Source of the DNA: Gemmatimonadota bacterium
GTDB taxonomy: Bacteria > Gemmatimonadota > Gemmatimonadetes > Longimicrobiales > Gaopeijiaceae
DNA length: 64,000 nt
NCBI GenBank assembly: GCA_022826005.1
Contig: JAJDVT010000094.1
Location: 1-64,000, forward strand
Reading direction: 5' to 3'
Position numbers and translations under genes: made by a program. This document shows positions 34,576 to 61,063 of this stretch, in pieces. The notes under the pieces were generated by a model. It was not told where the DNA came from. It was given only the letters and a program-made list of their open reading frames with translations, and did no database searches. The stretch's first letter is position 1. Each line of letters starts with the position of its first letter.

Positions 34576-37029
34576 TCACGGCGTTCCCTTCGCCAGCACC
34601 TCGAACCTCCGGCGGGCCCGGTTGCCGACGTCGTCCACCACCGTGAGGGTGTGCAGCCCCTGCGCGATGTCGAGCGCCTGTTCGTGGAAGACGCGGGTGG
34701 AGCCGACGTAGCGGTCGTCGAGGTGCCAGTGGAGCGTCGCCTCCGGATCGCGGTGCGCCGCCGAGAATACGGTGCGCCCCTTGCGGCCGCCCAGCTCCAC
34801 GGGGATGTAGATGCGGGCCCCGGGATGGGGATAGACGAAGTCGACCGGGCTGTCCGCCGCGGTAACGGTCGCCGCACAGTCCGCGCGGTATGCGGGAAGC
34901 GGACGGTATGCCGGGTTGCGGGCCCGGTAGTAGGCCTCCTGACCGGGTGGCAGCACGAACCAGCTCTCGTGCGACATGGTCCGGACCGATTCGCACCTGC
35001 CGTGAACGCGCTGACCGCTGACCGGGTCGAGGTGGACGGTGCGGTGGTGCGGGCTCGGGCGCGTGAAGTGGCTGTTCCGCGGGGCCCACGTGCGGGTGGT
35101 TTCGCAGCCGCCGGCCGCCAGGTAGCCGTCCGACTCGCAGATCCTCAGCTGCTTGAGGTGCAACTCGGGCATCGGGAACCACGCGTCGCCCTCCAGCCGG
35201 CCGATGATGTCGAAGAGGACGGGCGCTGCGGCCCCGATCCCCGTCAGTTCGGGCCGTCCCTCGCCGTTGGCGTTGCCTGCCCAGACCCCGACCGTGTAGC
35301 GCGGCGTGACACCGACCGCCCACGCGTCCCGGTGACCGTAGCTGGTGCCGGTCTTCCACGCGACGCGGTGCCCGTCGCCCAGGACGCGCCACTGCGAATC
35401 GGTCCCGGGACGGACCACCTCGACCAGCGCGTCGAGGGTGAGCCACGCGGCTCCGACGCTGAGTCCGGCGGGGCCGGCGGTCGGGTGCGGTTCCCCGGAG
35501 AGCAGGCGGGGGCGGAGATAGTGGCCGTTCGGGGGCCCGCCGTCACGCCGTCCGGTCGCCTTCGCGGCGGTTTGGCCGCGCGCAGGCACGTGCGGAGAGC
35601 CGTTCGGCGCCAATACGCCTGCCCCGCCGATCCGCGCCAGGTTCGCGTACATCGAGGTGATGTCCCAGAGCGTCCCCTCCGCGCCGCCGAGCACCAGCGT
35701 CAGCCCGTAGTGGCCGGGAGGACCGTGCAGCGTCTCCATCCCCATGTCGCGCAGGAAGTCGTAGAATCTGTCCACCCCGTGCCGCTTCAGCATCCGGACG
35801 GCAGGCACGTTGAGCGACCGCGCCAGAGCGTCCCTGGCGGGGACGGCGCCCCGGAACTCGAGGTCGTAGTTCTCGGGCATGTAGCCGGCGAACTGGGACG
35901 GAATGTCGGGGACGAGGGTTTCCGGCAGGATCTCGCCCGCGTCCAGCATCCGCGCGTAGAGGAACGGTTTTAGGATGCTGCCCGTGCTGCGCGGCCGCTG
36001 CACCAGGTCGATCGCGTGGCCCGAGCCCTGCGACACGCCCCACCTGCTGTTGCCGACGTAGGCGACCACCTCGAAGGTGCGGTTGTCGATCACGAGGGCG
36101 GCCGCGTGGCGGATTCCCAGAGACGCCAGCGATTGCGACTGGCGTGCCACCACATCGCCCGCCAGCCGCTGGAGCGGCGCGTCGAGGGTGCTCGAATACC
36201 GCCGCCCGGCGCTGCCCGCCTCGGCCGCGAGCCGCTGCAGCAGGTGCGGCGCCCACTCCGGCAGCGGGCCCGGCGCATCGGGCAGGGGCTCCAGCAGGGC
36301 GAGTTCCAGCGCCTCCGCGTCGATCGTGCCGTTTTCCCGCAGGCGGTGCAGGAGGCGGTCGCGCTTGGCCATCAGCCCGGCGCGGCTTCTGCCCGGATGC
36401 ATGGATCCCGGATTGTTCGGCAGGACCGCGAGCGTGGCGGCTTCCGCCCACGAGAGGTCGCCGGGACCCCGTCCGAAGTACCGCCAGGCCGCCGCCTCGA
36501 GCCCGACCACGTTGCCGCCGAAGGGGGCGTGAGCGGCGTAGAGCGCGAGCACTTCGTCCTTGGTGGTGCCGAGTTCGAGCCGGACCGCGAGCGCGGCCTC
36601 GACGAGCTTCTCCCGGTAGGTGCGGGGGCGCTGGCCGCGCGACATGCGGATCACCTGCATCGTGATCGTGCTGCCGCCGCTGACCACTTCTCCGGCGCGC
36701 AGGTTGTTGCGGACTGCGCGGGCCAGCGCCACGGGATCGACCCCGGGATGCCACCTGAACCGCTTGTCCTCGAAGGCGATCACGGCGGCGGCGTACTTCG
36801 CGGGCACCTCTTCGCGCGCCGGGAAGCGCCACTGCCCGTCCCGCGCGATCTTCGCGCCGAGCAGGGTGCCGTCGCGGGCCTCCAGAACGGAGGAGAGCGG
36901 CGTGTCGAAGAGGGGGGTGGGGAGGCGGGTGGCCAGGTCGGCCGCGATGAGGAGGACGAGGGCGGCACAGGCCCAGACGGCGCGGCGCCCCGGGCGCGTG
37001 GCTGTCCGGCCCTTCGCTGCGCCCCTCAT
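34576..37029 (-). CDS. pbpC: Penicillin-binding protein 1C
   Basis: 817 residues from ATG 37029, whose ATGA overlaps the stop of the upstream gene. One N-terminal membrane helix (VWACAALVLLIAADLA) is followed by a GT51 glycosyltransferase domain: FEDKRFRWHPGVDP with catalytic Glu, GGSTITMQ and R-x-K-L-x-E-x. The transpeptidase domain has SxxK in STGSILKPFLYARML, SLN in ARSLNVPAVR and KTGTSYGHRDAW. The C-terminal BiPBP_C domain (about 720-815) is present. It polymerises and may cross-link peptidoglycan. Pairing with the alpha-2-macroglobulin gene is conserved in many bacteria and suggests repair after attack by host or rival proteases. Confidence 0.96.
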   Translation of the reverse strand: MRGAAKGRTATRPGRRAVWACAALVLLIAADLATRLPTPLFDTPLSSVLEARDGTLLGAKIARDGQWRFPAREEVPAKYAAAVIAFEDKRFRWHPGVDPVALARAVRNNLRAGEVVSGGSTITMQVIRMSRGQRPRTYREKLVEAALAVRLELGTTKDEVLALYAAHAPFGGNVVGLEAAAWRYFGRGPGDLSWAEAATLAVLPNNPGSMHPGRSRAGLMAKRDRLLHRLRENGTIDAEALELALLEPLPDAPGPLPEWAPHLLQRLAAEAGSAGRRYSSTLDAPLQRLAGDVVARQSQSLASLGIRHAAALVIDNRTFEVVAYVGNSRWGVSQGSGHAIDLVQRPRSTGSILKPFLYARMLDAGEILPETLVPDIPSQFAGYMPENYDLEFRGAVPARDALARSLNVPAVRMLKRHGVDRFYDFLRDMGMETLHGPPGHYGLTLVLGGAEGTLWDITSMYANLARIGGAGVLAPNGSPHVPARGQTAAKATGRRDGGPPNGHYLRPRLLSGEPHPTAGPAGLSVGAAWLTLDALVEVVRPGTDSQWRVLGDGHRVAWKTGTSYGHRDAWAVGVTPRYTVGVWAGNANGEGRPELTGIGAAAPVLFDIIGRLEGDAWFPMPELHLKQLRICESDGYLAAGGCETTRTWAPRNSHFTRPSPHHRTVHLDPVSGQRVHGRCESVRTMSHESWFVLPPGQEAYYRARNPAYRPLPAYRADCAATVTAADSPVDFVYPHPGARIYIPVELGGRKGRTVFSAAHRDPEATLHWHLDDRYVGSTRVFHEQALDIAQGLHTLTVVDDVGNRARRRFEVLAKGTP

Positions 37030-40000
37030 CGTTCCTCCACCACGCGCACGGTCATCCCCTCGGTGCGTCCGTAGACCGACGCGTCGTACATCGCTTCTCC
37101 CGCCACCGCCGGCAGGTAGTACTCGCCCAGATAGGCGGCGTTGAACCACATCGAGATGGTGAGCGAATCGTCTTCGCCCAGGGAGAAATAGGTGAGGACG
37201 CGGTCGTCGCGCACGTCCTGGTAGTCGATCCGGCCGTCGGCCTGGCCCTCGCCGCGGTCCAGTCTGGCGTTGTGGATCTCCCACCCCGACGGCGCGCGGT
37301 ACTCCAGCGCCACATCGCGCGCGTCGCGGCCGGATGTGTTGCGCACGGTCACGTTGGCCACCAGGTCGGTGCCCTGCGCCAACTCGGCCGGATCTACGGG
37401 ATCGCCGTCCGGGTCGGTGTAGCGCACCTGGATCGCCAGCCCGGAAGAGGCCGCGACCTCGTCCCCCGCGGCGGGCGCGCCCCGCGTCACCAGACTCACG
37501 AAGAGCGGCGCGTCCGACGTGTTCGTCACCGCCACCGGTCCCCCGCGCTCCGCGAGCCCGGTGAGTTCCTCCGTATGGATCGGGGAGGAGGCCGTCCACG
37601 CCGTCTCGGCATCGCCCGTGCGGACCTCGAAGGTGAACTCCCCGGCCGCGTCGCCGACTCCGTAGAAGCGCGTCATTGCGAAGAGCGCATACGCGACGGA
37701 GTGGGTGCCGTGCCAGCGGTCCGAATAGAGGTCGTTCGAGATCTCCTCGGCGACCCGCGCCGCCTGCGCTCCACGGTCCAGGGCCACCAGCGCATCCAGC
37801 AGAATGGCCCGGTCGCGCAGCCGCGACCCCATGCTCCAGCCGGCCTCGATGTACTCCGGCACCTCGTCGTCGGCGCGTACGAGCCGCGCCGCGACGTCAT
37901 CGATCCCCGCGAGCCGGTAGGCCGCCGCGAGGTGCCAGCGGGCGGCCGGGTCCAGATCGCCCGATTCGCGCAGCCGGTTCATCGCGCCGATCTCGGACGC
38001 GCCGGCCAGAGCCAGCGTGTACAGCCGGTAGGCCTGGTCCATCGGCGGGGTGTCGCCCCGCGCTCTCCACGTCCGGGCCCGGCGGCGCTGGAAGTCCCGC
38101 CACCCCGCCAGCATCCCCGGATCGACGTAGTAGCCGAGCCGCTCCGCCTCGATCAGGAAGTGGCCGACGTAGTTGGTGACCCATCCGTTGCGGCCGTCGG
38201 CGGAGGCATGCCCGCCGGGCCAGTACGCGAAGCCGCCGGAAGAGACCTGAAACCCCCGCAAGCGGTCGAGGCCGGCCTGGACGTTATTCTCGGCGCGTGC
38301 GCGCGCGATGTCATCGAGGTTCACCAGCTGCGGAAGGTAGAGCTGCGCCAGGACGGCGGAGACGACTTGCTCCAGGCAGCCGTGAGGGTAGCGGACGAGG
38401 TATCCCAGACGGGCATCGAGGTTCAGGGGCGGCAGCCTCGTCACCTCCAGGGTCGCCGAGTTCGTTCCCGGAATCCCGTGGGGCTCCACCTCCCCCCCCC
38501 ACACCTCACCCGGGGCGATCTCCGCGCGCACCAGGTTGGCCGTCACGGGATTGGGGCTCCTCACCCGCAACGCGATCTCGGTCCGAGCCGTGTGCTCACC
38601 CGCCACGGCCGCGAACCGCAGCAGACCCTGGCCCGGCGCGTCCCCCGCGCGGAGCTGCAGCCGCGCCATGCGCTCGCCCACCCCGTCGAAGGCGACCGTC
38701 TCGCTCGACGTACCCACCACCTGGAAGCGCTCGCCCGGGTCCGCCGTGACCGTCGCCTCGCCGATCCCTTCCTGCATCGCGAAGAGCGTCACGGGGACGG
38801 CGATCTCCTCGCCGGGACCCACCACGCGCGGCAGCGTCGCCAGGATCGACAGCGGCTGCCGCACGAACACCGACTCGGATGCCGAGCCGTAGGCGCCGTC
38901 ACGGCCCGCGACGACCATCACGCGCACCTGCCCGAGGTACTCCGGGATGTCGACGGAGTGCGTCGCCGTCGCGCCGCGGCCGAGCCGGAACGGCCCCATG
39001 AAGCGCACGACCGGCGGGAACCGGCTCCGCTCCTCGTCGGGTTCGAGTTCGGCGTCGTCCCCGCCCAGCGCGAGCAGCCGCTCCAGTTCGCCGCCGTACG
39101 CCCCGGCCACCTCGTCGAAGATGTCCCAGGTCGAGACCCCGAGCGCCTCCCGCGCGAAGAAGTGGTCGTGCAGATCGGGCGTCTGGAAGCTCGTGAGGCC
39201 GAGCAGGCCTTCGTCCACGACCGCGAGGGTGTAGGTCATCGGCCTCCCGGACGCCTCGGAGACCTGAACCGTGACGGTCGTGTCCGGCCGCCACTCCGCG
39301 GGGACGCCGATCTCGGGGCGCAGCACCGTCGCCGGGTCCTCCACCTCGAGCGGGATCACCCCGTAGAGCCGGATCGGCCGGTCGTTCGCGCGGCCGGCGT
39401 GGGGCTGGATCAGGTGGACGCCCACGTACACGTTGGGACTCATCTCGGCAGTGAGCGGCACCTCGAAACGCTGGCGGCCGCCGCCGAGTTCCATCCACCG
39501 CTGGTCAAGGATCCGGCTTCCGGTCTCCAGCGTGACGAGCGCGCGGCCTGAATTTGCCTCGGGCAGCTGGATTTCGGCCACTTCGCCCACGGCGTAGCTG
39601 GTCTTGTCGGTGAGCAGCGTGAGCACGCTTGCCCCGGTGCCGGACTCCGTCCGGGGCCGGCCCGCCCATCCCGGCCAGTCCAGGTAGATGACCTTGCCGG
39701 TACAGTGGCCGCCGGCCGTGTCGCACGCTCGCAGGAGATAGCGGCCCCATTCGGGTGAGTTGACCCGGAAGTCCCAGCTCCCGCGCCCCTCCGCCGTCGC
39801 GATGGTGCCCTCCGCGACCACCTGGCTGTACCGGGACTCGGTGTAGCGTGCCAGCGACTCCGCCGAGCGGTCCCACCACCAGCGCCAGTCGATCTTGTAG
39901 AGGGTGAGGTCGACCGATTCGGCCGCGACCGGATCGCCGCCCGGCGACAGGGTCGCGATCTGGACGGTGTGCGTCGTATCGGTGAGGAGCATGCCCCGGG

Positions 40001-42674
40001 CCGCGTCGCCCGGCGGCGTCCGCACCCCGACGTAGGTCTCGTACGGCGAGAAGCGCGCGCTCCTGCGGTTGGTGCTGAAGGCGCCGCCGTCCTCGAAGAT
40101 GCGCGTGGTGAAGGTCGCCGCGAGCATCCCGGGGGCCTGGCCGCCGGGGGCAAGCTCCGGGGTGAAGGATGCGTAGCCTTCGTCGTCGAGCGCGCCCTCG
40201 AAGATCGTGGTCGGCTCCCCGGCATACTGGCGCGCGGGATCGTCGAAGACGTGGTCGCCGTACTGGGTGAAGGCGGTGCGCACCGGCCGGAATGCGACCC
40301 GCACGTCGGCGTCGAGGCTGCGCGCGACCGCGCCGCTCAGCCACTGCCCGAAGAGGGTGGCTTCGCGGGGATCGCCCGCCTGCAGGAGCTCGCCCGTGCC
40401 CGAATCGGCCGGATCCGCGCCACCTGCCCCCAGGTCGAGATCGACCCTGAGGCGGTTCGGCATCACCGTCTCGACGCGGACGGGCGCCGAGAAACGCGCC
40501 CCGCCGACCTCGACGGCCGCGTTCCAGTTCCCGGTGGGCGCGTCCGGGGCCGTCCCGAGGGTGAAGGCGTAAAAGCCGTCGAGGGGATCGGCGTTCGTGA
40601 CCGTGTGAACGACCTGGCCGAACGGGTTGAGGAGTTGCAGGGTGGCCGGGTGGTCGTCGGGGAGGGGGTTCTCCGCGTCGTCGAGCACGAACGTCAGGTG
40701 GATGTCGTCGCCGGGGCGCCAGACGCCGCGTTCGCCGTAGATCTTCCCCTTGAGCCCGTCGGTTACCACCGCACCGCCCACGTCGAAGTGGCTGGTGGGC
40801 AGCGCGGGCCCGAAGTTCATCTTGAGATAACCTTTGTCGCCTCCGGGCCGGCTGCGGCCGCCGATGCCCATGCCCGCGCCGGCGCCTGGCCGGCCTGCCG
40901 TCCGCCGTCCGCCACCCCCCTCCGCCACCGCGTAGTAGGGAATCCCCTCCAGGGTGGTGCGCGCCATCCCGTCCGACCCCGTCACCACGGTCGCCAGCGG
41001 CTGGTTCTGATAGTTCATGAAGGTCACCGATACGCCCCTCATCGGATCGGAGGTGCGCAGGTCGGTGGTGGCCACCAGGACGTCGCCCCGCGGGTCCCGC
41101 TTCGCCGTGATCCCGATGTTCGACGCCAGGAAGTTGCGGGAGTTGGTCGCCCTCCCGGACCACCGGTAGTAGGAATCCGTGCACGGGTCGTCGCGGTCGG
41201 CCCACTCGAAGGGGGCCTCGTTTCCCCGGATTCCGTCCCAGCCCGTGACGAACCGGTCGTACTGGTCGTTCAGGTTGGCTGGTTCGGGCTCGATCGCCAC
41301 CGGCACCTGGCTGCGCGCGCCGGAGCACGTGAAGGTGGAGTTGCCGCGGTTGATCGACAGGGTCAGCCGGATGAGGCTCCCCGCGTGGGCGCGCACTACA
41401 TCGCTGACGTCGAGCGTATAACGGTTCCACCCGCTGTCCTCCGCCTCGGGGAGCGATATGGTGCGCCGCCAGAGGGTGCGTCCTGCCCGCCCGAGTTCGC
41501 GGCCGCCGGAGAGATCGTTGTTCTGGAGGAACTGTCCGATGTTGGCCTCGTACACCTCGAAGGCCGTGACCTGGACCGAATGCACGTTGGCCGCCTCGAT
41601 CGGAACGGTCAGCATTTCGGCCTCGGGGAGCACCACCCCGCGCCCCGCGAAGCGCACTCCCGGCTTCACGTCGACGAATTGCACCACGTGCTCGCTTCGC
41701 TCCTCGAGCCTATTGCCGCCGGCGCCCCGGATCCCGGCTTCGAGCATGACCGTTGCGGGCCCGATGACGCGCTCCGCCGGGAAGATCCGGAGCGTGTTGC
41801 CGGATACCTCCAGGGTGAAGCGCCCGTCGCCCAGGCTCACCAGGCCGGCGAGATCCTGGCTACGGTCAAGCGGGTCCGAGAAGCGAATCTGCGCGTACTG
41901 GCGGTCGTCGGACTCGGCGCGGGCCCCGGTGACGCGGAAGATGTTCTGCCCCGGGACCGTCACGTCCCGCCTGCCGCGCGAGGGCACCCCGATGGAACTA
42001 CCGTCCCAGCGCAGCCGCAACTCGCCGTCGCGCTCCCCACGCGTCACACCCTGAATGGCAAAGCTGTGATCGATGCCACTTTCGCCGTGCATCCACCGCA
42101 TCCCGAGGCGCCTTCCGCCCTGCTGGGCGGTCAGCACCTGCTCCACCGCCCCGCCCTCCGCGAAGTCGGCGGTCACGACCGTCCCGGTCAGCACGAGGCC
42201 GTCCTCCCCCCCGGCCTGCGCCTCCAGTCCGTGCACCCGAATCTCGAAGTCCTGCTCGATGACCTCGAAGGCGAACCAGTAGTCGCCCAGATCCTCCGGC
42301 AGGCCGAGCAGTCCCTCCCGCGCCAGCGTGACCCGGAAGAAGCCGCCCGAGGGCAGTTCGGCCTCGGGTGTGAAGACGAGCTGGCGGGCACTGGTGAAGA
42401 CGGCGGTGCCGTCGATCGCCGGCTCGAGCTGCAGCACCCCGGCCGCCGGCTGGCCGAGAAGGTGCTCGCCCGTTACATCGCGGGTGAACTCGATCGTGAC
42501 GCGGTCGCGACTCGACACGGTCCCGTGGGTGCGGGCGCTGATCAGCGATCCCCACCTGGGATCGACCGGCGGGCCGGCCGAATCGGGACCTTCGACGGCG
42601 CTGCAAGCGGCCAGGGCCGTCAGGGTCGCCAGGGGGAGCGGGACGAAGCGGGGCGGCAGGATGGACATGACCAT
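37026..42674 (-). CDS. Bacterial alpha-2-macroglobulin lipoprotein
   Basis: 1882 residues from ATG 42674 (or ATG 42668). A lipobox LTALAACS anchors it to a membrane. Large MG-like beta domains follow: YLKMNFGPALPTSHFDVGGA and the macroglobulin MG domains; VTLETGSRILDQRW; MTYTLAVVDEGLLGLTSF; and the PxYLGQVRVMVVAG segment before the thioester domain. The thioester motif is intact: HGCLEQ with Cys1433 and Gln1436. After bait cleavage by a protease, the exposed thioester traps the enzyme. The Gly/Arg-rich stretch at about 585-600 may be part of the bait region. The gene ends inside the pbpC start. Confidence 0.95.
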   Translation of the reverse strand: MVMSILPPRFVPLPLATLTALAACSAVEGPDSAGPPVDPRWGSLISARTHGTVSSRDRVTIEFTRDVTGEHLLGQPAAGVLQLEPAIDGTAVFTSARQLVFTPEAELPSGGFFRVTLAREGLLGLPEDLGDYWFAFEVIEQDFEIRVHGLEAQAGGEDGLVLTGTVVTADFAEGGAVEQVLTAQQGGRRLGMRWMHGESGIDHSFAIQGVTRGERDGELRLRWDGSSIGVPSRGRRDVTVPGQNIFRVTGARAESDDRQYAQIRFSDPLDRSQDLAGLVSLGDGRFTLEVSGNTLRIFPAERVIGPATVMLEAGIRGAGGNRLEERSEHVVQFVDVKPGVRFAGRGVVLPEAEMLTVPIEAANVHSVQVTAFEVYEANIGQFLQNNDLSGGRELGRAGRTLWRRTISLPEAEDSGWNRYTLDVSDVVRAHAGSLIRLTLSINRGNSTFTCSGARSQVPVAIEPEPANLNDQYDRFVTGWDGIRGNEAPFEWADRDDPCTDSYYRWSGRATNSRNFLASNIGITAKRDPRGDVLVATTDLRTSDPMRGVSVTFMNYQNQPLATVVTGSDGMARTTLEGIPYYAVAEGGGGRRTAGRPGAGAGMGIGGRSRPGGDKGYLKMNFGPALPTSHFDVGGAVVTDGLKGKIYGERGVWRPGDDIHLTFVLDDAENPLPDDHPATLQLLNPFGQVVHTVTNADPLDGFYAFTLGTAPDAPTGNWNAAVEVGGARFSAPVRVETVMPNRLRVDLDLGAGGADPADSGTGELLQAGDPREATLFGQWLSGAVARSLDADVRVAFRPVRTAFTQYGDHVFDDPARQYAGEPTTIFEGALDDEGYASFTPELAPGGQAPGMLAATFTTRIFEDGGAFSTNRRSARFSPYETYVGVRTPPGDAARGMLLTDTTHTVQIATLSPGGDPVAAESVDLTLYKIDWRWWWDRSAESLARYTESRYSQVVAEGTIATAEGRGSWDFRVNSPEWGRYLLRACDTAGGHCTGKVIYLDWPGWAGRPRTESGTGASVLTLLTDKTSYAVGEVAEIQLPEANSGRALVTLETGSRILDQRWMELGGGRQRFEVPLTAEMSPNVYVGVHLIQPHAGRANDRPIRLYGVIPLEVEDPATVLRPEIGVPAEWRPDTTVTVQVSEASGRPMTYTLAVVDEGLLGLTSFQTPDLHDHFFAREALGVSTWDIFDEVAGAYGGELERLLALGGDDAELEPDEERSRFPPVVRFMGPFRLGRGATATHSVDIPEYLGQVRVMVVAGRDGAYGSASESVFVRQPLSILATLPRVVGPGEEIAVPVTLFAMQEGIGEATVTADPGERFQVVGTSSETVAFDGVGERMARLQLRAGDAPGQGLLRFAAVAGEHTARTEIALRVRSPNPVTANLVRAEIAPGEVWGGEVEPHGIPGTNSATLEVTRLPPLNLDARLGYLVRYPHGCLEQVVSAVLAQLYLPQLVNLDDIARARAENNVQAGLDRLRGFQVSSGGFAYWPGGHASADGRNGWVTNYVGHFLIEAERLGYYVDPGMLAGWRDFQRRRARTWRARGDTPPMDQAYRLYTLALAGASEIGAMNRLRESGDLDPAARWHLAAAYRLAGIDDVAARLVRADDEVPEYIEAGWSMGSRLRDRAILLDALVALDRGAQAARVAEEISNDLYSDRWHGTHSVAYALFAMTRFYGVGDAAGEFTFEVRTGDAETAWTASSPIHTEELTGLAERGGPVAVTNTSDAPLFVSLVTRGAPAAGDEVAASSGLAIQVRYTDPDGDPVDPAELAQGTDLVANVTVRNTSGRDARDVALEYRAPSGWEIHNARLDRGEGQADGRIDYQDVRDDRVLTYFSLGEDDSLTISMWFNAAYLGEYYLPAVAGEAMYDASVYGRTEGMTVRVVEER

Positions 42675-42813: not shown

Positions 42814-43974
42814 CTACGGCAGTGTCGGCGGGGACACAATCCGGAGAACCACCAGGTGCTCCACGTCCATCGAGTCGCGGCCCACGCTGAGAACCTCCCT
42901 GTTTCGGAGCGAGAAGAGCCGGATGCCCTCTTCGAGCGTGAAGGTGCCGACCGTCCCGTTCCGGTCCAGGAGAGACCACTCCACGATGTCGGCCCACCTG
43001 TGCACGTAGTGACCGACGAGGGTCTCGGATCCGTCGCTGATCACCGCGGCGGAGAAGGGTCGCGGCACCGTCCCGTCCCAGACTTCGACCGATTGCCGCG
43101 CACGGGACATGTAGTCCTCGCCGGGGTCCCGGCTTACCCTGGCTTCGACACGCTCCCAGAGAGCGTCCATCTCCGCCTCCGACACGGGGGGCGGCGGAGA
43201 GGCCGGCCGCAGGGTCCGTGCCGTCCGTCCGTCCCAGTCAAATGACACCACGCGGCCGTCCCTTGCATCCGCGGCGACGACACCGGTGGGGACCAGATCG
43301 TATTGTGCATGCGCTGCAAATGCCGGCATTCCGTCCCGAATATCCCCGCTCGGGCTTCTGAGGACGAAACTCTCGCCGCCCGGGACCTTGATCGGAGTTT
43401 CGAGCGGAGTCCCCGGGTCGTCCACCCGATAGAACTCGATCGTGTCTCTCAGGATTTGCATGACGTTCCGCAAACCCGTGCCCGAATCTCTCGCTACGGA
43501 CACCACCGGGGCTCCGCCGGCGCCGAAAGCAATCTTCAGAGGTGTCTCGGGGAGGTCGCGCAGCGACCAGGTAGCGACCGGGGACTCACGATGGAACAGC
43601 AGCACCCGGCGCATGGCTCCATCGAGGAGGAGAATCGAGTCACCCTTGGTGTCCAGGTCCAGCAGGCTCTGAAACTCCCCGGGGCCCTCGCCTGGCCGGC
43701 CGACCGTCCCCACCAGGTCTCCCGCCTCGTTCAGCAGCAGCACTTCCGTGGGTTCGAGCTTCATGACGACGAAGAGGCCGTCGGGCCCCCGTTTCACGTC
43801 TTGGACGAAGTACAGGAGATCGCTGTGGACGACTACGACGGTGTCTAGGGTGAGCCTTGCCGGTGGCTCGGCGGGGGCCGCGGGTTGCCGGCCGCCCGGC
43901 TCGCACCCGGCCGCTGTCGTCAGGACGCAAAGCGTGGCAAGGAGGCCCAGCCGCGGGGGGAGCGGAGCGCTCAC
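42814..43974 (-). CDS. Six-bladed beta-propeller lipoprotein
   Basis: 386 residues from GTG 43974, inside the stop of the DUF1080 gene (GTGA). Signal LGLLATLCVLTTAAGC gives a lipoprotein (Cys about 24). Propeller strands include KRGPDGLFVVMKL, LLLNEAGDLVGTVGRPGEGP followed by GEF, SILLLDGAMRRVLLF and GVVAADARDGRVVSFDWDG. The ligand is unknown. As the last gene of the four-gene coupled operon, it may bind a sugar-derived compound handled by the oxidoreductase and DUF1080 protein. This link is by position only. Confidence 0.85.
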   Translation of the reverse strand: MSAPLPPRLGLLATLCVLTTAAGCEPGGRQPAAPAEPPARLTLDTVVVVHSDLLYFVQDVKRGPDGLFVVMKLEPTEVLLLNEAGDLVGTVGRPGEGPGEFQSLLDLDTKGDSILLLDGAMRRVLLFHRESPVATWSLRDLPETPLKIAFGAGGAPVVSVARDSGTGLRNVMQILRDTIEFYRVDDPGTPLETPIKVPGGESFVLRSPSGDIRDGMPAFAAHAQYDLVPTGVVAADARDGRVVSFDWDGRTARTLRPASPPPPVSEAEMDALWERVEARVSRDPGEDYMSRARQSVEVWDGTVPRPFSAAVISDGSETLVGHYVHRWADIVEWSLLDRNGTVGTFTLEEGIRLFSLRNREVLSVGRDSMDVEHLVVLRIVSPPTLP

Positions 43975-45353
43975 CCCCCCAGATCCACCACCTCGAGATT
44001 CCGCCACCTGACTTTGATCCCGCCGCCGTCGTGGATCTGGAGCGCGATCGACCCCTCGGCTGCGCCGATAGCCTCGTCGGTGAAATCGACCATCCGCGTC
44101 CCGTTCAGCCATGTCGTGACCCGGTCGCCCACGGCGCGCACCCGCATCGTGTTCCAGTCGCCCATCTTGAGAGCCGCGTCCAGCTCCGGATCCGGCTGCA
44201 CCAGCCATCCCCGCCCGTACGACTCGTAGATCCCGCCGCTGAAGAGCCCCGGCGGCGCCACCTCCGCCTGCCACCCGCTCACCGTCGTGCCCTCCACGCT
44301 GGAGCGGAAGAAGACGCCACTGTTTCCGTCGGATTCCTGCATGAAATCGACGCTCAGATCGAAGTCGCGGAAACGTCGTTCGGTCTTCAGGTACCCGTAC
44401 TGGGCGTCCGGGCCGCTTTCGCAGACCAGCTCGCCGTTCTCGACGTACCAGCGCTCGGTCCCGTGCACCTGCCAGCCGTCCAGGTTCTCGCCGTTGAAGA
44501 GCGATACCGGTCCCAGCGGCAGGATCTTGATGTTGCGGTAGAAGACGTTGCGGCCGTGGTCCTGCAGCCCGATCGGGCCCGACGCCGCGCGGCCGTACTG
44601 CGGGAACGGCTCGAACTTGCTCGCCGCGACGAGCGCCTCCCACTCCGGCGAGCCGAGCACGTATTCCACCGTCCTGACGCCGTTGAGCCAGTGCTCGACG
44701 TGGTTGTTGGCGACGCGGATGCGGGCGCTGTTCCACTCACCCGGCCCGTGCAGGGTCTTGTCGCCGGCGGAGTGCAGGTCGTAGTTGTCGCCGGTGAGGT
44801 GGGTGTTCATGTCCATCGTGCCCATCTCGATGTAGGCGGGGTCGTCGAGCACCTGGTACTCGGGCGCGTTGTTCCAGATCGCGAAGCCGTCGGCCTCGAT
44901 CACCCGGTAGAGGACGCCGCTGTTCGCCACCTCCGACAGCATGAAGTCGAACTTCAGGTCGAAGTCGGAGAACGACTCGGTGGTGACGATGTCCCCGCCG
45001 ATGGCCACGTCCGGATCGCCGGCGGTCGCGCCTACGACCAGCGTGCCGTCGACAACAGCCCACCCGGTGTCGGGGAAGGCCTCGCGGTTGTAGCCCCGCC
45101 AGCCGTCGGTGGTCTCGCCGTCGAAGAGGAGGCGCCAGCCGGCCTCGCGTTCGGCGTCGGTGAGGGTGTTGGGGGATGGGTCGGTGTTGGCGGACGCATC
45201 GCCGGACCCGTCGCCGGTGTCCCCATAGCATGCGCCGGCGAGCACCACGACCGCGAGCGCGAACGCAATCGGCGGAGATCGGCGCGAGCGGCGGAAGGCG
45301 GCCGGCCGAAGCGTCTGCGAACGGCCGGTGTGTATCGTGTGTATGGTGCGCAT
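43971..45353 (-). CDS. Double DUF1080 (3-keto-glycoside hydrolase-like) lipoprotein
   Basis: 460 residues from ATG 45353, overlapping the amine-oxidase stop by one base. A lipobox ending L-A-G-A-C-Y-G follows a hydrophobic segment. Two DUF1080 (concanavalin-like) domains: first WRLLFDGETTDGWRGYN ... GVLYRVIEADGFAIWNNAPE; second VSLFNGENLDGWQVHGTER ... GNSGVFFRSSVEGTTVSGWQ, each ending with a G.I.LQ.HG/DG strand. DUF1080 proteins are now linked to hydrolysis or elimination of 3-keto-glycosides. The oxidoreductase encoded upstream could make the keto sugar, which supports this role. Confidence 0.88.
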   Translation of the reverse strand: MRTIHTIHTGRSQTLRPAAFRRSRRSPPIAFALAVVVLAGACYGDTGDGSGDASANTDPSPNTLTDAEREAGWRLLFDGETTDGWRGYNREAFPDTGWAVVDGTLVVGATAGDPDVAIGGDIVTTESFSDFDLKFDFMLSEVANSGVLYRVIEADGFAIWNNAPEYQVLDDPAYIEMGTMDMNTHLTGDNYDLHSAGDKTLHGPGEWNSARIRVANNHVEHWLNGVRTVEYVLGSPEWEALVAASKFEPFPQYGRAASGPIGLQDHGRNVFYRNIKILPLGPVSLFNGENLDGWQVHGTERWYVENGELVCESGPDAQYGYLKTERRFRDFDLSVDFMQESDGNSGVFFRSSVEGTTVSGWQAEVAPPGLFSGGIYESYGRGWLVQPDPELDAALKMGDWNTMRVRAVGDRVTTWLNGTRMVDFTDEAIGAAEGSIALQIHDGGGIKVRWRNLEVVDLGG

Positions 45354-46903
45354 CAGGCAAACCTCGCTTTGTCGGGATTCCGGCCTGGCAGCCCGCGCCT
45401 CGCCGCCCTGGGTGCGACGCGGGGATTATTCACGGGCTGCTGGGCGGTGGAAGTTGCGGCGATCTGGCGGGCCGCGCGAACGCCCGAGAGAAACGCGCCG
45501 TGTACCGTCGCCGGATAGTCGTCGTTGGTCGCTTCGCCCGCGAAGAAGACCTTGTCGCCGACGGGCTCTCCCAGAACCGCGTGCTCCTCGAAAGAAGATC
45601 CGGCCGGCACATACGAATAGGAACCGTGCGCCCACGGATCCGAGCGCCATCGTGTGATGCGTGTGTCCCTGGGCGGCGGCACGTCCCCGTACATGTTCGT
45701 GAGGGCCGCAACGGCCCGCGCCACGACCTCGCGGTCGGAGAGCCGCTCGAGCTGGGTGCCGTACGTGGCGGAGTTGAGCATCGCGAGGATGGGCTTCCCC
45801 GTGTACGGATACAGGCTGATGGTCTCCGCCCACTGCCCCCTGTCCGCACTGACGTATTGGAGGCGCTCGACGTCCCGGTCCCAGAAGACATCGTCGAACA
45901 ACAGGTACGCCTTGTTGAGCACGCCCATCTCGAGGCTGGCGATCGCGCTCCTCTTACGGACCGGCAGCGACGGACGGAACGCGATGAAGTCCTCCTTCAA
46001 TACCCCAAGCGGAACCGTCACGATGACTCTGTCGGCCTCGATGGTCGCACCGGCGGCCGTCGTCACGCCAATGGTCGACCCCGAATGGTCGATCTCCGTC
46101 ACGGCCTGCCCTCGCCTGACCGCCACACCGCTCGCCAGCACGCCGACGATCTGCCCGTAACCGCCCGGGAAGACGACATCCCCCCCACGAAATGAACTCG
46201 CGCCATCGACGCTCGCGTACGAGAGGTCACTCAGGCCGGCGGCGTATTCATTCTCGACTTCGGTGGTGAGCAGGTAGTCCAGGTAGCTCCTGTCGGCCTC
46301 GCTGAAGGTCATGCTCGTGAGGAGTTCTTCGTAGACCGACTGGAAGTTCCTGCCGGGATTCTCCTCCGCCAGCCTCCAGAAGTCCCGCATCGCCCGCCGT
46401 GCGGAACGCGCCGGCTCGCCCGCGTCGTAATGGAACACCCCGTTGCCCCAGTCGGTCCGGTGCGTCGCGATGTTGTTCTCCCTGGCGATGGCGGTGATGG
46501 GGTTCCCGTCGATCCCGTGAATCCAGGATGCTCCGAGGTCGATCGGAAAACCGTCGCCGATGGTGTCCGTCCAGATGCGCCCGCCGATGCGGTCGCGGGC
46601 CTCGAGCACGACGACATCGTCGAAGCCGTTCGTGTGCAGTTCGGTGGCGGCCGCCAGGCCGGCTACCCCGGCGCCGATGATCACGACCCCTTGATTGCGC
46701 TTTGGGGAAGCGGGTGAGGAGAGTCGCCGGCGTCCCGTCTCGGACACTGCGTTGCGTTCCGGCAAGACGGAAACGGCCGGGACGATCCCCGCCGCGCCGA
46801 GCGCGCCCTTGACGAAGGCGCGGCGGTTCATTCGCGGAGGTGTGGCCCCGACGCGCTGCTCCGGCGGCGTTGCGCGTGACCCACTCCCCTCGGCACGCGT
46901 CAC
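45353..46903 (-). CDS. Tat-exported FAD-dependent amine oxidase
   Basis: 516 residues from GTG 46903, which overlaps the preceding stop (GTGA); ATG 46831 just before the Tat motif NRRAFVKGALGA is the alternative. FAD-binding GxGxxG: VVIIGAGVAGLAAATELHTN and LEARDRIGGRIWT. The C-terminal flavin segment reads VFFAGEATNDDYPATVHGAF followed by SGVRAARQI. This is the monoamine oxidase/polyamine oxidase family; substrate could be an amine, amino acid or amino sugar. Location is the periplasm. Coupled to the GFO/IDH and DUF1080 genes. Confidence 0.9.
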   Translation of the reverse strand: MTRAEGSGSRATPPEQRVGATPPRMNRRAFVKGALGAAGIVPAVSVLPERNAVSETGRRRLSSPASPKRNQGVVIIGAGVAGLAAATELHTNGFDDVVVLEARDRIGGRIWTDTIGDGFPIDLGASWIHGIDGNPITAIARENNIATHRTDWGNGVFHYDAGEPARSARRAMRDFWRLAEENPGRNFQSVYEELLTSMTFSEADRSYLDYLLTTEVENEYAAGLSDLSYASVDGASSFRGGDVVFPGGYGQIVGVLASGVAVRRGQAVTEIDHSGSTIGVTTAAGATIEADRVIVTVPLGVLKEDFIAFRPSLPVRKRSAIASLEMGVLNKAYLLFDDVFWDRDVERLQYVSADRGQWAETISLYPYTGKPILAMLNSATYGTQLERLSDREVVARAVAALTNMYGDVPPPRDTRITRWRSDPWAHGSYSYVPAGSSFEEHAVLGEPVGDKVFFAGEATNDDYPATVHGAFLSGVRAARQIAATSTAQQPVNNPRVAPRAARRGLPGRNPDKARFA

Positions 46904-48387
46904 ACGAGCCTCATCGCATCAGGATCCCACCGCACGATCCGGTCCTCGAAGTAGCTGGTGTTGCAGGCCAGCGCCGGCGCCGCCGCGCGCAACCCGAAGC
47001 TCGCGTCCTCGCGCACCGGCGGACCGCCCCGGATCGCCTCGAAGAAGTTGAAGAAGTGGTCGACGTGGGCGCCCCGGTAGCCCCGCTCGACCTGGTAGCG
47101 GACCTCGGCCGGGGGCAGCATCCGCACCCGCGCGGGCAGTCCCCCCTCGTCCGCCGCCGCCTCGGCCATCTTCTCCTGGCTGAAGGCGTCCATCGGGTCG
47201 ACCGCGACGTTCTTGCGCAGCACGACGTCGGTCCACGTCACATCCATCGCGCCCTCGCTCCCCACCAGGCGCAGGAAGGTGCTGCCCGAGGTCCCGTCCA
47301 CGAAGTTGACCCTGAGCGACAGGTTGAAGCCCGGGTGCGAATTGGTCTCGGGGTAGTCGAAGACGCCGAGGAGCACGTCCGGCACCTCGCGCCCGTCCTT
47401 CCAGTAGCGGAGACCGCCGGCGGCCTGCACCCGCGTCGGCCCGTTCGAGCTGACCACGAAGTGCAGGCTGGAGAAGAGGTGCACGAACAGGTCGCCCGCG
47501 ACGCCGGTCCCGTAGTCGCGGTAGTTGCGCCAGCGGAAGATGCGGAGCGGGTCGTAGGGGCGGTCGGGGGCGGGTCCGAGGAAGCGCTGCCAGTCCACAG
47601 TCTCTGCGGAAGCCTCCGCCGGGATGGGATACTGCCATGCTCCGATGGGATCGTTGCGCGCCCAGAATCCCTCTGCGTAGTTGAGCTGGCCGATCGCGCC
47701 TTCCTCGTACAGCTCCCTGGCCTTCTCGTTGCCGAGCGAGCTCATCCCTTGGCTGCCGACCTGGAAGACCTTGCCCGATTCCTGTTCCGCGCGGATCAGG
47801 TCGCGCCCCTCGGCGATGTCGTGCACCATCGGCTTCTCGCAGTAGACCGACTTGCCGGCTCGCAGTGCGGCGACCGATATGGGCTGGTGCAGGTGGTCGG
47901 GCGTGCCGACGATCACGGCGTCGACATCGTCCCGGGCGAGCACCTCGGCGTAGTCGCGCGTCGTGAAGATCTCCCCGTGGCGCTCCTTTGCGGCGTCGAG
48001 CCGCCCGTCGAAGACATCGCATGCCGCCACCAGCTCCACCCCGGGGATCCGCAGCGCGGTGTTCACGTCGGCCATCCCCATCCCCCCGGCCCCGATCACG
48101 GCCAGGCCGACGCGGTCGGAGGGCGGCACCTGTCTGCTACCGGGCTCGCGGCTCAGCGTGCGGCGGACTGCACCCCGCGCCTCGGCCGACAGCAGGGAAG
48201 GGAACCCCGCGGCAAGCGCCGAGCCGGCCGCGACGGATTTGACGAACTTGCGCCGGCTACTGGCGGCGGGCTCCGGATGGTACGCTTGCCGGTCTCCGGC
48301 GGGGACGGAGGCGGCGTCGGATTGCCTCTGGCTACTGGCGGGGCCGGGCTTCGGACTGGACTTTCTCTTGTCGCTCATGGTGTCCAC
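46900..48387 (-). CDS. Tat-exported GFO/IDH/MocA family oxidoreductase
   Basis: 495 residues from ATG 48387 (or ATG 48378). A hydrophilic leader precedes the Tat motif SRRKFVKSVAAGSALAAGFP. Rossmann fold: VGLAVIGAGGMGMADVN, ELVAACDVFDGR, DAVIVGTPDHLHQPI and the EKP motif V-Y-C-E-K-P-M, with Lys as the conserved catalytic residue. NAD(P) is carried in the folded enzyme through Tat. It probably oxidises a sugar hydroxyl to a keto group. First gene of the four-gene operon, divergent from a symporter. Confidence 0.92.
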   Translation of the reverse strand: MDTMSDKRKSSPKPGPASSQRQSDAASVPAGDRQAYHPEPAASSRRKFVKSVAAGSALAAGFPSLLSAEARGAVRRTLSREPGSRQVPPSDRVGLAVIGAGGMGMADVNTALRIPGVELVAACDVFDGRLDAAKERHGEIFTTRDYAEVLARDDVDAVIVGTPDHLHQPISVAALRAGKSVYCEKPMVHDIAEGRDLIRAEQESGKVFQVGSQGMSSLGNEKARELYEEGAIGQLNYAEGFWARNDPIGAWQYPIPAEASAETVDWQRFLGPAPDRPYDPLRIFRWRNYRDYGTGVAGDLFVHLFSSLHFVVSSNGPTRVQAAGGLRYWKDGREVPDVLLGVFDYPETNSHPGFNLSLRVNFVDGTSGSTFLRLVGSEGAMDVTWTDVVLRKNVAVDPMDAFSQEKMAEAAADEGGLPARVRMLPPAEVRYQVERGYRGAHVDHFFNFFEAIRGGPPVREDASFGLRAAAPALACNTSYFEDRIVRWDPDAMRLV

Positions 48388-50777: not shown

Positions 50778-52025
50778 CTATCTCACCGCGGCAGGCACCC
50801 TCTTCACCACGATGGAAGGAACATCCATCTCGTCTACCTCCCAGAACGCCACCAGGCCGTCCGGGCCGAATGCGCTCGGTATCCGCGCATCGTCAATGGC
50901 GAAGGTGCCCACGTAGTTGCGGTCGGCGTCGAAGACGTCGGTCGGGCCGTACTCCCAGGGCTCCTCGCCGTGCCTGCGGACCCACAGGCGGCCTTCCCAG
51001 GTGGCCCGGAGCCATCGGATGATCGGCACCTCGGGGTAGAATCCCCGCTCTTCCATGACTTCGAGGAGCATCGGCGATGATGGTCGCTTGAACTGGTCGA
51101 GCTCGCGCTCCATCAGGGCCTCATGCATCCGTTCGGTGACGGTCTCCGGGACAAGAGGGCGCCGCAACTCGCCGCGTGGGGCGCCGTCGGCCGCTACGAA
51201 CCGGACCACGTAGGCCGATGAGTCGGAGTAGGCGAGCGTACCGTCCGGCAGGACATCCCAATGGAACTTCGGCTCAAGGATCATGCCGTCAAGGAAGACC
51301 CTCAGTATGTCCCCCGATTCCAGCCCGTCCGGAAGTGGTTCGCGAGGCGATTTGCGGGGCGCGCGCCACCCCTTCAGCGCGGTTTCCGCAACGACCCTGT
51401 CGGCACGAACGTCGAACCGCTCGATCGTGCGGTCGTCGGCTCCCACTGAATCGGGGTGCGTACCCCACGAGGCCATGGCCCGATGCGCGTAGATCGCGCC
51501 CTGCGCGTACAGGGAGACGCCGTCCGGGTGAGGCCTCATTCGGCGTTGCAGCGTGAGTTGCTGGAGTTGAAACGGTCTGAACTCCGTGTTCATCCGGGCA
51601 AAGTGGCCGTGCGAGCCGTCCGCGCCGAACACCTGGATGGCCCAGCGCCTCCCGTCGGCCACCGCGAAGCGCCCGTCGCGCCAGACCACGAGCGCCGTCG
51701 GATCCTGGAAATCTCCGGGTCCCTCGCCCCTTTGGCCCACGGTCCTTACCAACTCGCCGGCCGGGTTGATCACGACCACGCGGAAGCCCTCCGCGTCGAG
51801 GACATGAAGGTTCCCGGAAGCGTCGAAACCCAGGTCGCCGGTTCCGGTGAATTGCGCCCAGTCGGGGGCGGCCAGACCGCCCACGCGGTATACCTCCGGA
51901 AAGTCCGCCGTCAGCGGGCGATCCTGGGCGCCGACGGAGGAGAAAGTCGTGGCCAGGCCGGCCAGAAGGACGGCGGGGATGGTTGCGGCTTTGGGCCGCG
52001 GACTGGACTTTTGTTGTTCGCTCAT
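50778..52025 (-). CDS. Secreted six-bladed beta-propeller protein, copy 1 of 3
   Basis: 415 residues from ATG 52025. A signal peptide AATIPAVLLAGLATTFSSVG ends at A-Q. The mature start [20 protein letters not shown] is shared with the copy at 53816-55168, as are [58 protein letters not shown] and the end [20 protein letters not shown]. The family is the propeller type abundant in this lineage; ligand unknown. Followed (on its upstream side) by a divergent cyclophilin gene and then two more copies. Confidence 0.87.
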   Translation of the reverse strand: MSEQQKSSPRPKAATIPAVLLAGLATTFSSVGAQDRPLTADFPEVYRVGGLAAPDWAQFTGTGDLGFDASGNLHVLDAEGFRVVVINPAGELVRTVGQRGEGPGDFQDPTALVVWRDGRFAVADGRRWAIQVFGADGSHGHFARMNTEFRPFQLQQLTLQRRMRPHPDGVSLYAQGAIYAHRAMASWGTHPDSVGADDRTIERFDVRADRVVAETALKGWRAPRKSPREPLPDGLESGDILRVFLDGMILEPKFHWDVLPDGTLAYSDSSAYVVRFVAADGAPRGELRRPLVPETVTERMHEALMERELDQFKRPSSPMLLEVMEERGFYPEVPIIRWLRATWEGRLWVRRHGEEPWEYGPTDVFDADRNYVGTFAIDDARIPSAFGPDGLVAFWEVDEMDVPSIVVKRVPAAVR

Positions 52026-52139
52026 GGCTCGCAAGGCGTTGGAGGGCCGGCGTGTGGGCGGGCATGCCGCGACAGGACCCGCGTTTCGCCCGGGACGCGT
52101 CCGATAAGGTAACCGGGAGCCGGCACAGTCGGAAAAGAT

Positions 52140-52835
52140 TTGGGGGGTGATGCAGTGCGCCGATCCGAAACGCGGCCGAGTCCGTCGCGCCAACGGGTGC
52201 GAGCCGGGTCGCGCCAGCGGGTGCGCTCCGTCATCCTTGCGGTGCCGATGTCCACCGTTGCCCTTCTGCTCCCCGGTGCTATCCGCTCCCCCGGCGTCCC
52301 GCCCGGCGCGAGCGATCCCGTGCGGGTCGTTGTCGAGACCGGAATGGGCTCCTTCGAGCTGGAAGTCGACGCCGACCGGGCTCCCATCACCGCCGCGAAC
52401 TTCCTCCGCTACGTCGACGGCGGCCACTACGACGGCGGCACATTCCACCGCACCGTCCACGAGGACAACCAGCCCAACGACTCCATCCGCATCGCGGTCA
52501 TCCAGGGATCCCGCAACCGGGAGGCGGGCGCGGCGGCCTTCCCGCCCATCGCCCTGGAACGGACCAGCGAGACCGGCCTCGCCCATCTGGACGGCACGGT
52601 CTCCATGGCGCGGGGCAGACCCGACTCGGCCACGCACAGCTTCTTCATCTGCATCGGCGACCAGCCGTCCCTCGACTTCGGAGGGATGCGCAACCGGGAC
52701 GGGCAGGGGTTTGCCGCGTTCGGCCGGGTGGTGGAGGGGATGGATGTGGTGCGCGCGATTCACCGGGCGCCCCATGAGGGGCAGAGGCTGACTCCGACCG
52801 TACGGATAGTGAGGGCGTACCGCAGGGTGGGGTGA
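52140..52835 (+). CDS. Exported cyclophilin-type peptidyl-prolyl isomerase
   Basis: Up to 231 residues; the start is uncertain. TTG 52140 is the longest, GTG 52155 or GTG 52197 are alternatives, the last giving a conventional signal (RSVILAVPMSTVALLLPGA). The mature domain begins VRVVVETGMGSFELEVDADR and has the cyclophilin core FLRYVDGGHYDGGTFHRTVH, THSFFICIGDQPSLDFGGMR and G-F-A-A-F-G-R-V-V-E-G-M. The catalytic Arg of F-H-R-T is present. It speeds proline isomerisation of exported proteins. It sits head to head with propeller copy 1, 114 bp apart. Confidence 0.9.
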   Translation: MGGDAVRRSETRPSPSRQRVRAGSRQRVRSVILAVPMSTVALLLPGAIRSPGVPPGASDPVRVVVETGMGSFELEVDADRAPITAANFLRYVDGGHYDGGTFHRTVHEDNQPNDSIRIAVIQGSRNREAGAAAFPPIALERTSETGLAHLDGTVSMARGRPDSATHSFFICIGDQPSLDFGGMRNRDGQGFAAFGRVVEGMDVVRAIHRAPHEGQRLTPTVRIVRAYRRVG

Positions 52836-53119
52836 GCGGCGGGCCCTGGAGGGCCTGGTCCGGGGGACCGAGTACCGGCGGGGCTCATTCGAGTACCGCC
52901 TGCTCCAGCCGCCAGAGTTTTGAGCGTGTAGTATCCGGTACCGAGGTTCGCAATGTCCACGGCCAGCGCCATCGGTTCGGCCGCCCTGGTTGCATTCTGC
53001 GTCCATGACACCGCGGGCACCCGAGGGGCTGACCGCAACCGAAGTGCGCGGAGCGTCCGGGTGAGCAATCCCGGTCTATCCCCCTCGACGGAGAGCGAAA
53101 CGCGCAGTGGCCACGCCAC

Positions 53120-53722
53120 GACGGAACCGTAGACCTCCCAGTAGGCGACCAGGCCATCGGGGCCGAAGGCCACCGGTATGCTGGTGATGCCGGCCGCGAA
53201 GGTTCCGACGTACTGCCGGTCCGGGCCGAAGACATCGATCGGGCCCCCTGTGTCCCAGGGCTCCTCTCCGGGCCGCCGAATCCACAGCCCGCCCTCCCAC
53301 GTTGCCCTGAGTTGGCGAACAATCTGGATTTCCGGGTAGAACTCGCGATCCTCGATCTGTTCGCGCACGTCGCGGGGCAGGCCGCCGGAGTCTTCGAACA
53401 GGGATTCGCGGCTGCCGATTTCACGTTCGATAGCAGCGGACCGCAGGCGACGGCTGACGCCTCCGGGCTCGATCGGCCTCTGCACGACGTCGATCACCTG
53501 TCCCCCGGGCCTGACGAACTTGACGGCATAGGCCGAAGAATCGGAATACGCGATGGTGCCGTCCGGCAGGATGTCCCAGCGCAGCGGGGGCTCGAAGAAG
53601 CGTCCCTCGACCCTGCCGAACATCAGTGCATCCCTCTTGGCTTCGTCCAGGAGGTCGTTGAGAGTCAGCTGCTCGAGGGCCTCTTCCGGAACATCGTCAC
53701 GGGGTGCCCGCCACGCTTGCAA
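53120..53722 (-). pseudogene. Truncated beta-propeller gene, copy 2 of 3
   Basis: From AWRAPRDDVPEE to [14 protein letters not shown] it follows the second half of the two intact copies (shared [53 protein letters not shown]-like). The first half with signal peptide is absent, and after Y-W-E-V the chain becomes unrelated (VVAWPLRVSLSVEGD) instead of ending near 'VVKR'. The unrelated reading runs on to about 52760, overlapping the cyclophilin gene on the other strand. It is cut at both ends and most likely inactive. Confidence 0.8.
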
Positions 53723-53815
53723 CAGGGGTTGGACGACGAACTCTCACCTCTGCCGACCACCGCCGTACCACAACGGTTGTCGCGCCTGGCGGCCCGGGCG
53801 ATGCTCAAGCGGGCC

Positions 53816-55168
53816 CTACCTCAGCTCGACCGGCAATCGCTTCACGACGAGGGTCGGCACATCCAGCTCGTCGACCTCCCAGAACGCGACCAGGCCGTCC
53901 GGTCCGAAGGCGAGCGGCATCTTCGTGGCACCCGCCGGGAAGGTGCCAAGATACTGCCGGTCGCGGCCGAACACATCAATCGGCCCCTCGTCGTCCCACG
54001 GCTCTTCGCCGCGCCGTTGCACCCAGAGCACGCCGTCCCAGCCGGCCCGGATGCTCCGGATCACGGGCACTTCACCGAAGAACTCGCGGCTTTCGACCCG
54101 TTCTCGGCGGGACTCGTCCAGGTCTGACATGGCGGCGCGCAGCTCGGGGTCGTCCACGGCAGCGTTCCTCTGTTCGCTGGCGCGCCGGAGCTGGTCAATC
54201 TCCCATTCGATCATCGCGGAGCGGATCCCGTCGTTGACCACTTCGGGCTGGATGGGGCGCCGAATCACGTCCCGCACCTGGCGGTTCCTGGCGATCCAGA
54301 CCAGGTAGGCCGAGGAGTCCGAGTAGGCGATCATGCCGTCCGGCAGGATGTCCCAGTGGAACTCCGGTTCGAAGAACATCAGGGCGCTGGCCGCCCGGGC
54401 CAGCCCGGCGTTGCCCCTGAGGTCGTCGGCTGTGATCCTGTCGACCGGCTGCCGGCGGGGCGCCCGCCACCCCTCTGCGACCGTCTCGGCGGCCACGACA
54501 TCACCGCTGAGATCGATTCGCTCGACACCACGTTCGTCGACTCCCGCCCTCGGTTGCGGCTGCGCCCCGGCCAACTCGTCGAACGCGCCAATGAGATCGC
54601 CCATGGCGGCCCTTGCCCCCTGTGCGTAGATGCCGCTCCCGTTCGGATCCGGCCTCATGACCCGGCCTGTCTGCGCGAACATGGCAAAGGGGTTGCCCGG
54701 CTGGGTGCTCCAGCGAACCATGCGCTGGAACCAGCCGTCGGGGCCGAACAGGTGCATGGCGTTGTGCCCCGCGTCGAGCACGGCAAAGTGCCCGTCGCGC
54801 CATACCACAAGGTTGGAGGGAAGGTCGAACTCCCCGGGTCCTTCGCCCGCGCGTCCGACGACCATCACCGGCTGGCCGTCCGGGCCGATAATCGCAACCT
54901 GGGGCGCATCCGCGTCCAGGACGTACAGGTTCCCCGAGCCATCGAACCCCGCAGGCCCGGGGTTCGTGAACAGCGCCCAGTCGGGGGCATCCGTCCCGCC
55001 GGCCCGGTAGACCTCGGGGAAATCGGCGGCCAGCGGGCGGTCCTGGCCGGCGGCGGTAGAGGCTGCAACCGCGCAAGCGAACAGGGCGATCGCGGCCCGC
55101 AAACGCGGCCGGGTGGGCGACAACCTGGGAACGACGCGTGCCGTCAAGCCCGCTGCCTGCTGGAACAT
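53816..55168 (-). CDS. Secreted six-bladed beta-propeller protein, copy 3 of 3
   Basis: 450 residues from ATG 55168. Signal peptide [20 protein letters not shown], then [20 protein letters not shown] as in copy 1. Shared features: [78 protein letters not shown]. Compared with copy 1 it has an insert ([12 protein letters not shown]) and a charged helix [20 protein letters not shown]. It has its own good promoter (TGG-TATAAT at 55250-55245 with an operator-like dyad). Confidence 0.87.
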
Positions 55169-57328: not shown

Positions 57329-57479
57329 TCCTTGCCGGACTCGATCCTGCCGCCGCAGCCGCCCGAACCGCCGAAGCCGCCGCCGAAGCCGGTGCCCCCT
57401 CGGCCGCCGCCGCCCCCGCGGCCGGTTCCGGGCGGGGTTGTCAGGCGAAGCAACATCATATGGGTCCATCGATATGGGT
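57329..57479 (+). other. In-frame proline-rich open stretch directly after the ricT stop
   Basis: In the ricT frame, codons after the TGA read S-LPDSILPPQPPEPPKPP, PKPVPPRPPPPPRP, then VPGGVVRRSNIIWVHRYG and a stop at 57477-57479. The stop overlaps the ATG of the next gene (57474). TTG 57332 has GGAGGA at 57317-57322 and could start a separate 49-residue peptide. It may be a readthrough tail, a lost C-terminal extension or a small gene. Confidence 0.45.
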
Positions 57480-61062: not shown

Positions 61063-61063
61063 G

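Follow-up and report, generated by a model that had tools for sequence, protein, structure and literature searches.

The four minus-strand genes at 42814-48387 of the window (the 64,000-nucleotide stretch of a Gemmatimonadota contig analyzed here) raise the question of whether genes so tightly overlapping encode one pathway or a conserved module with local additions. From the upstream end they encode a Gfo/Idh/MocA dehydrogenase (Gfo; 46900-48387; PF01408, 3.5e-21), a flavin amine oxidase (AO; 45353-46903; PF01593, 5.3e-80), a double DUF1080 lipoprotein (43971-45353; PF06439, 1.3e-88, in two stretches) and a DUF5128-like six-bladed beta-propeller lipoprotein (42814-43974; PF17170, 5.2e-05, just at the cut-off). 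The original prediction, which read these genes as one periplasmic pathway, gave overlaps of 1-4 bases, and the successive overlaps measured are indeed 4, 1 and 4 bases. The propeller start is the GTG at 43974; the mechanical ORF list extends this ORF upstream to 44736. Export of all four products, also part of that prediction, agrees with the signal motifs that we found in each, namely Tat motifs in Gfo (SRRKFVKS) and AO (NRRAFVKG) and lipoboxes in the DUF1080 protein (LAGAC) and the propeller (TAAGC). The predicted Tat signals are thus on both cofactor enzymes and the predicted lipoboxes on both proteins without an evident cofactor. About 97 bases upstream of Gfo a dicarboxylate symporter gene begins, in divergent orientation. 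An assembly artefact is excluded for the first three genes, whose homologues are arranged in this order elsewhere too, including in the single-contig genome G002.

Close orthologues of both Gfo and the DUF1080 protein are present in 21 of 23 genus genomes, with identities of 84-98% for Gfo and 76-92% for DUF1080. The two genes are on different contigs in two of these 21, and the junction between them was readable in 19 genus members. In 8 of the 19, AO separates Gfo from DUF1080; in the other 11 the two genes are joined directly or nearly so and AO is absent. When the four-gene order was searched for in other genomes, the first three genes recurred and the set including the propeller was seen in the window genome only, so that the locus is not one conserved four-gene operon. 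The single pathway originally proposed gives way to a smaller conserved part, the dehydrogenase and two DUF1080 domains. We consider it probable that this part is an ancestral exported glycoside module, that AO was inserted into it later as an independent gene, and that the propeller was added later still. The widely conserved exported module, in which Gfo accompanies two DUF1080 domains of different type whose fusions have one order in some lineages and the reverse in others, can in this way be separated from local additions. A scan of the collection gave metagenome genomes of Gemmatimonadota as the closest named relatives, among them Candidatus Palauibacter poriticola (86% identity in Gfo). 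The window most likely derives from this neighborhood, and from general knowledge of the group we take the lineage to be probably sponge-associated.

The dehydrogenase matches PF01408 over the cut-off and has an N-terminal Rossmann domain and an EKP motif, as expected of the Gfo/Idh/MocA family; E184-K185-P186 and GD299xxxH303 are unchanged across 19 orthologues. Its best NCBIfam model is the glycoside 3-dehydrogenase NF058561, but its score there, 142 bits across residues 85-326, is far short of the 750-bit cut-off, making it a relative and not a member of this BT_2158-type equivalog. A score so far below the cut-off does not fix the regiochemistry or the substrate of Gfo. The closest solved structures are 8tdf and 8tdh, and from its sequence Gfo is probably a Tat-exported glycoside 3-dehydrogenase. 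A GH109-type C-terminal domain was not found in Gfo, where only generic Gfo C-terminal models matched (E up to 0.001); presumably Pfam holds a separate model for the GH109 C-terminal domain.

The DUF1080 protein scores 296 bits against PF06439 as a whole, and its two domains, D1 (about residues 66-281) and D2 (about residues 282-460), score 162 and 140 bits, with a cut-off of 26.8 bits. Its nearest structures are the putative glycosyl hydrolases 4jqt, 3hbk and 3u1x, followed, by structure titles, by a 3-keto-2-hydroxy-glucal hydratase (BT2157) and a 3-keto-glycoside eliminase/hydratase; the putative hydratase/eliminase activity on 3-keto sugars is assigned by homology to 8tda, 8v31, 8rr2 and 9fbe. 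The predicted model of the protein has a mean pLDDT of 65.7. Many relatives encode D1 and D2 in two neighboring genes, some Bacteroidota have D2 ahead of Gfo, and over distances outside the genus D2 is more similar (about 60-77%) than D1 (36-60%). BT3469 (PDB 4jqt) contains one domain of each of the two types but in the opposite order, its N-terminal domain matching D2 and its C-terminal domain matching D1. D1 and D2 are distinct domains that tend to stay together, and their fusion appears to have happened more than once. The pair makes a possible division of labor between eliminase and hydratase directly testable. Within the DUF1080 start, a direct repeat, ATACACACgATACACAC (45328-45344, minus strand), is AT-rich within a GC-rich gene and occurs once in the window (0 expected) and once in the whole genome. 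Part of the genus shares it: several other genomes, some with AO and others without, have it at the corresponding position.

Beyond the genus, Gemmatimonadota, Acidobacteriota and Bacteroidota all have loci with the order Gfo-D1-D2, usually encoded by three individual genes. Salegentibacter has a SusD gene ahead of the core and, further upstream, a large gene whose size and position match SusC, an arrangement consistent with the uptake and breakdown of glycans. The pairing in three phyla and the nearest solved relatives agree with the earlier suggestion that Gfo/Idh and DUF1080 together fit 3-keto-glycoside cleavage, and we infer that the module oxidizes a glycoside at C3 and cleaves the product outside the cytoplasm. 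It is a known kind of pathway in a new architecture. The 3-keto-glycoside pathway of Bacteroides thetaiotaomicron (BT2156-BT2160) likewise has homologous Gfo/Idh (BT2158) and DUF1080 (BT2157) enzymes, but here Gfo belongs to a separate subfamily, two different DUF1080 domains are fused, and AO and the propeller are added. DUF1080 proteins have been described as 3-keto sugar hydrolases in Bacteroides and proposed to be so in Caulobacter, where a periplasmic 3-keto sugar (3'-ketolactose) is likewise made and then split by DUF1080, although the dehydrogenase is the membrane-bound LacABC (encoded by lacABC) and not Gfo/Idh (PMC9007349). The Agrobacterium operon of Gfo, O-glycoside eliminase and hydratase follows the same logic of oxidation, elimination, hydration, and reduction (PMC10628242), but it has a separate eliminase resembling sugar phosphate isomerases/epimerases, and none was seen beside the core here. 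The original operon would then have consisted of a Gfo/Idh 3-dehydrogenase and the DUF1080 domain pair, fused in the window. Crossing the membrane by the Tat route already folded and together with its nicotinamide cofactor, the dehydrogenase would oxidize the glycoside at C3 in the periplasm, and one or both DUF1080 domains would cleave the 3-keto-glycoside by elimination and hydration. The dehydrogenase may also re-reduce the 3-keto sugar, closing the redox balance. The window genome has a second locus of 3-keto type (G000:C86, L093:5431-10077), with a single DUF1080, an AP_endonuc_2 TIM barrel, a Gfo/Idh and an MFS transporter.

The junction between the core genes records how AO came to be there. 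In AO-less genomes a conserved stretch at the Gfo 3' end runs into the DUF1080 start (TGATG). In the window the last 30 nucleotides of the dehydrogenase before the stop (46903-46932, minus strand), the template of the duplicated tail, are in their original place, and a scar, a degraded second copy of this 3' end, lies between AO and DUF1080 (45356-45385, minus strand). The scar now encodes the AO C terminus, which reads NPDKARFA in the window; in G014 AO ends in WNPDNMRFA, beside a Gfo family ending of WDPDAMRL. For scoring we used a fixed tail profile from ten AO-less genomes, chosen after the results of a free alignment were at hand, and ran it with and then without the DUF1080 start. The window scar matches the AO-less consensus tail at 20 of 30 positions, ranks 8 of 127,940 window positions and sits at the exact ancestral offset; with the DUF1080 start included it matches at 27 of 38 (rank 2 of 11,962). 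With that start excluded, the copies rank 2 in G014, 2 in G002, 3 in G077 and 9 in G082. Copies of about 30 bases were seen in five of the eight AO-bearing genomes, these four and the window genome (G000), and were not recognizable in G071, G092 and G051, where matches were weak. By free alignment none of 400 random windows was as good for G002, G082 and G077, and the signal was weak for G000 and G014. Controls with AO copies elsewhere and with the DUF1080 starts of genus g4 gave no comparable match at the anchor position. A second dehydrogenase tail upstream of DUF1080 indicates that AO entered a pre-existing junction. In the history that we favor, an AO gene of LSD1/polyamine oxidase type would have entered the junction in an ancestor of part of the genus; the event would have left a second copy of roughly 30 bases from the 3' end of the dehydrogenase and preserved translational coupling.

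One AO-less genome, G026, retains the trace of a loss. In its 50-base spacer the tail copy is preceded by 24 nucleotides from the 3' end of AO (rank 1 of 29,936), so AO was deleted there and is dispensable. Clean losses elsewhere would be accounted for by recombination between the duplicated tails. AO presence on the core tree needs at least three changes, and in an AO tree built without distant outgroups the in-operon copies group together, with weak support (78/68). Synonymous divergence is lower for AO than for its neighbors between G082 and G077 (0.29 versus 0.56) and between G000 and G071 (0.42 versus 0.61), which suggests transfer as well as loss; between G000 and G014 it is close to that of the neighbors. 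Exchange of AO between lineages or a different codon constraint are possible reasons for the low values. After its insertion AO would thus have been lost, and possibly exchanged, in several lineages, a small-scale case of a gene that enters an operon with a readable scar and is then lost again.

AO scores 270 bits against PF01593 and has the FAD-binding motifs GAGVAGL and RxGGR and the active-site lysine. That lysine, K303, corresponds in the alignment to the VLK lysine of LSD1; it, the flavin motifs and the Tat residues RR27-28 are invariant across 16 AO homologues. Among solved structures AO is closest to LSD1/LSD2 and to spermine/polyamine oxidases, with which it shares the FAD motifs, the lysine at the catalytic position and a C-terminal YPATVHGA motif; unlike that family, AO is bacterial and predicted to be Tat-exported. 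The position aligned with the LSD1 active-site tyrosine, which we take to be Y761, is histidine in the window and four close relatives and tyrosine in the others. The predicted AO structure was set aside because the alignment was too shallow (pLDDT of 38.8). Pairs of in-operon copies have dN/dS of about 0.27-0.39, and AO is under purifying selection. AO is a real operon member, accessory and dispensable but still constrained. Homologues elsewhere adjoin a prolyl-oligopeptidase-type peptidase and a small SnoaL-like protein, or a PLP enzyme, and among the neighborhoods examined no homologue outside the operon was found within a 3-keto module. Two Bacteroidota loci (L147, L187) have AO-like flavoproteins near the core, but these are distant relatives encoded on the opposite strand, and we rejected them as counterparts. 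Judged by its relatives, the substrate of AO is most likely a free amine in the periplasm, a polyamine or similar, oxidized independently of the sugar chemistry.

It is possible, if on balance rather unlikely, that AO is specifically a periplasmic polyamine oxidase working with a potABDC-like ABC transporter 10 kb away. The closeness of AO to LSD1 and the polyamine oxidases is in its favor, as is the transporter region itself (57288-61936), which encodes a PotA-like ATPase over the TIGR01187 cut-off, PotB/PotC-like permeases and a weak PotD-like match. However, AO-less genomes too have the core close to the accA/PSP1 block, which in the window lies ahead of the transporter. The linkage of AO to the transporter therefore looks like old synteny, although the AO-less loci end before the pot genes.

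The original prediction saw in AO a sign of an amino sugar or aminoglycoside substrate and looked to its absence from the cluster in all relatives as the contrary outcome; AO is present in seven other genus members. Beyond co-location we found nothing in support of such a substrate, as AO is related to LSD1 and the polyamine oxidases and has its homologues in unrelated contexts. An integrated pathway in which the action of Gfo and DUF1080 frees an amino sugar or an amine aglycone, which AO then deaminates oxidatively in the periplasm, would account for the tight overlaps, the predicted co-export, the selection on AO and its place within the operons of seven relatives. We nevertheless regard it as improbable, since the core stands without AO in 11 of 19 genus members, the loci sampled beyond the genus all lack AO at the junction, the G026 remnant marks AO as dispensable, homologues elsewhere adjoin a peptidase or PLP enzyme, and polyamines or lysine side chains are the substrates of the closest relatives of known structure. 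The related idea that AO was captured as a true partner for amine-bearing glycosides, adding periplasmic deamination to an oxidative 3-keto pathway, we hold to be equally doubtful. Purifying selection and repeated translational coupling do leave room for a real functional link. That AO was ancestral to the operon and lost many times, with no distinct insertion, would fit its patchy presence and the G026 remnant, but is very unlikely given a duplicated dehydrogenase tail upstream of DUF1080 that polarizes the event as an insertion into an existing junction and the absence of AO from that junction in every sampled outgroup.

Later insertion of AO, the reading that we prefer, has parallels at the same positions. 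In genus g4 (L190-L195) a Big_2/LRR/M66-like protein of ~1,450 residues lies between Gfo and DUF1080 (L194:2431-6828), and in Salegentibacter a PD40 propeller does. At the operon end of G017 an amidohydrolase gene overlaps the DUF1080 end by 4 bases, and its homologue lies just downstream in G020 and G094. With unrelated genes at the same junction or operon end, tight overlap is weak evidence for pathway membership here. The propeller family has 62 matches in the window genome, and the nearest relatives of the operon propeller (69%) are at other loci of other genomes; it would be a still later addition at the operon end. Three consecutive paralogues of another propeller-like family lie at 50778-55168, and none of them is the operon propeller. 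A gene for an Asparaginase_2 (glycosylasparaginase-like) protein is found a few kb from the core in ten genus loci (L034, L035, L036, L079, L083-L085, L088, L089 and L091), two examples having a Tat signal by Pfam; this is probably old synteny. Directly downstream of the operon, at 37026-42674, is a bacterial alpha-2-macroglobulin gene of 1,882 amino acids, and four other genus genomes likewise have such a gene in the vicinity of the core.
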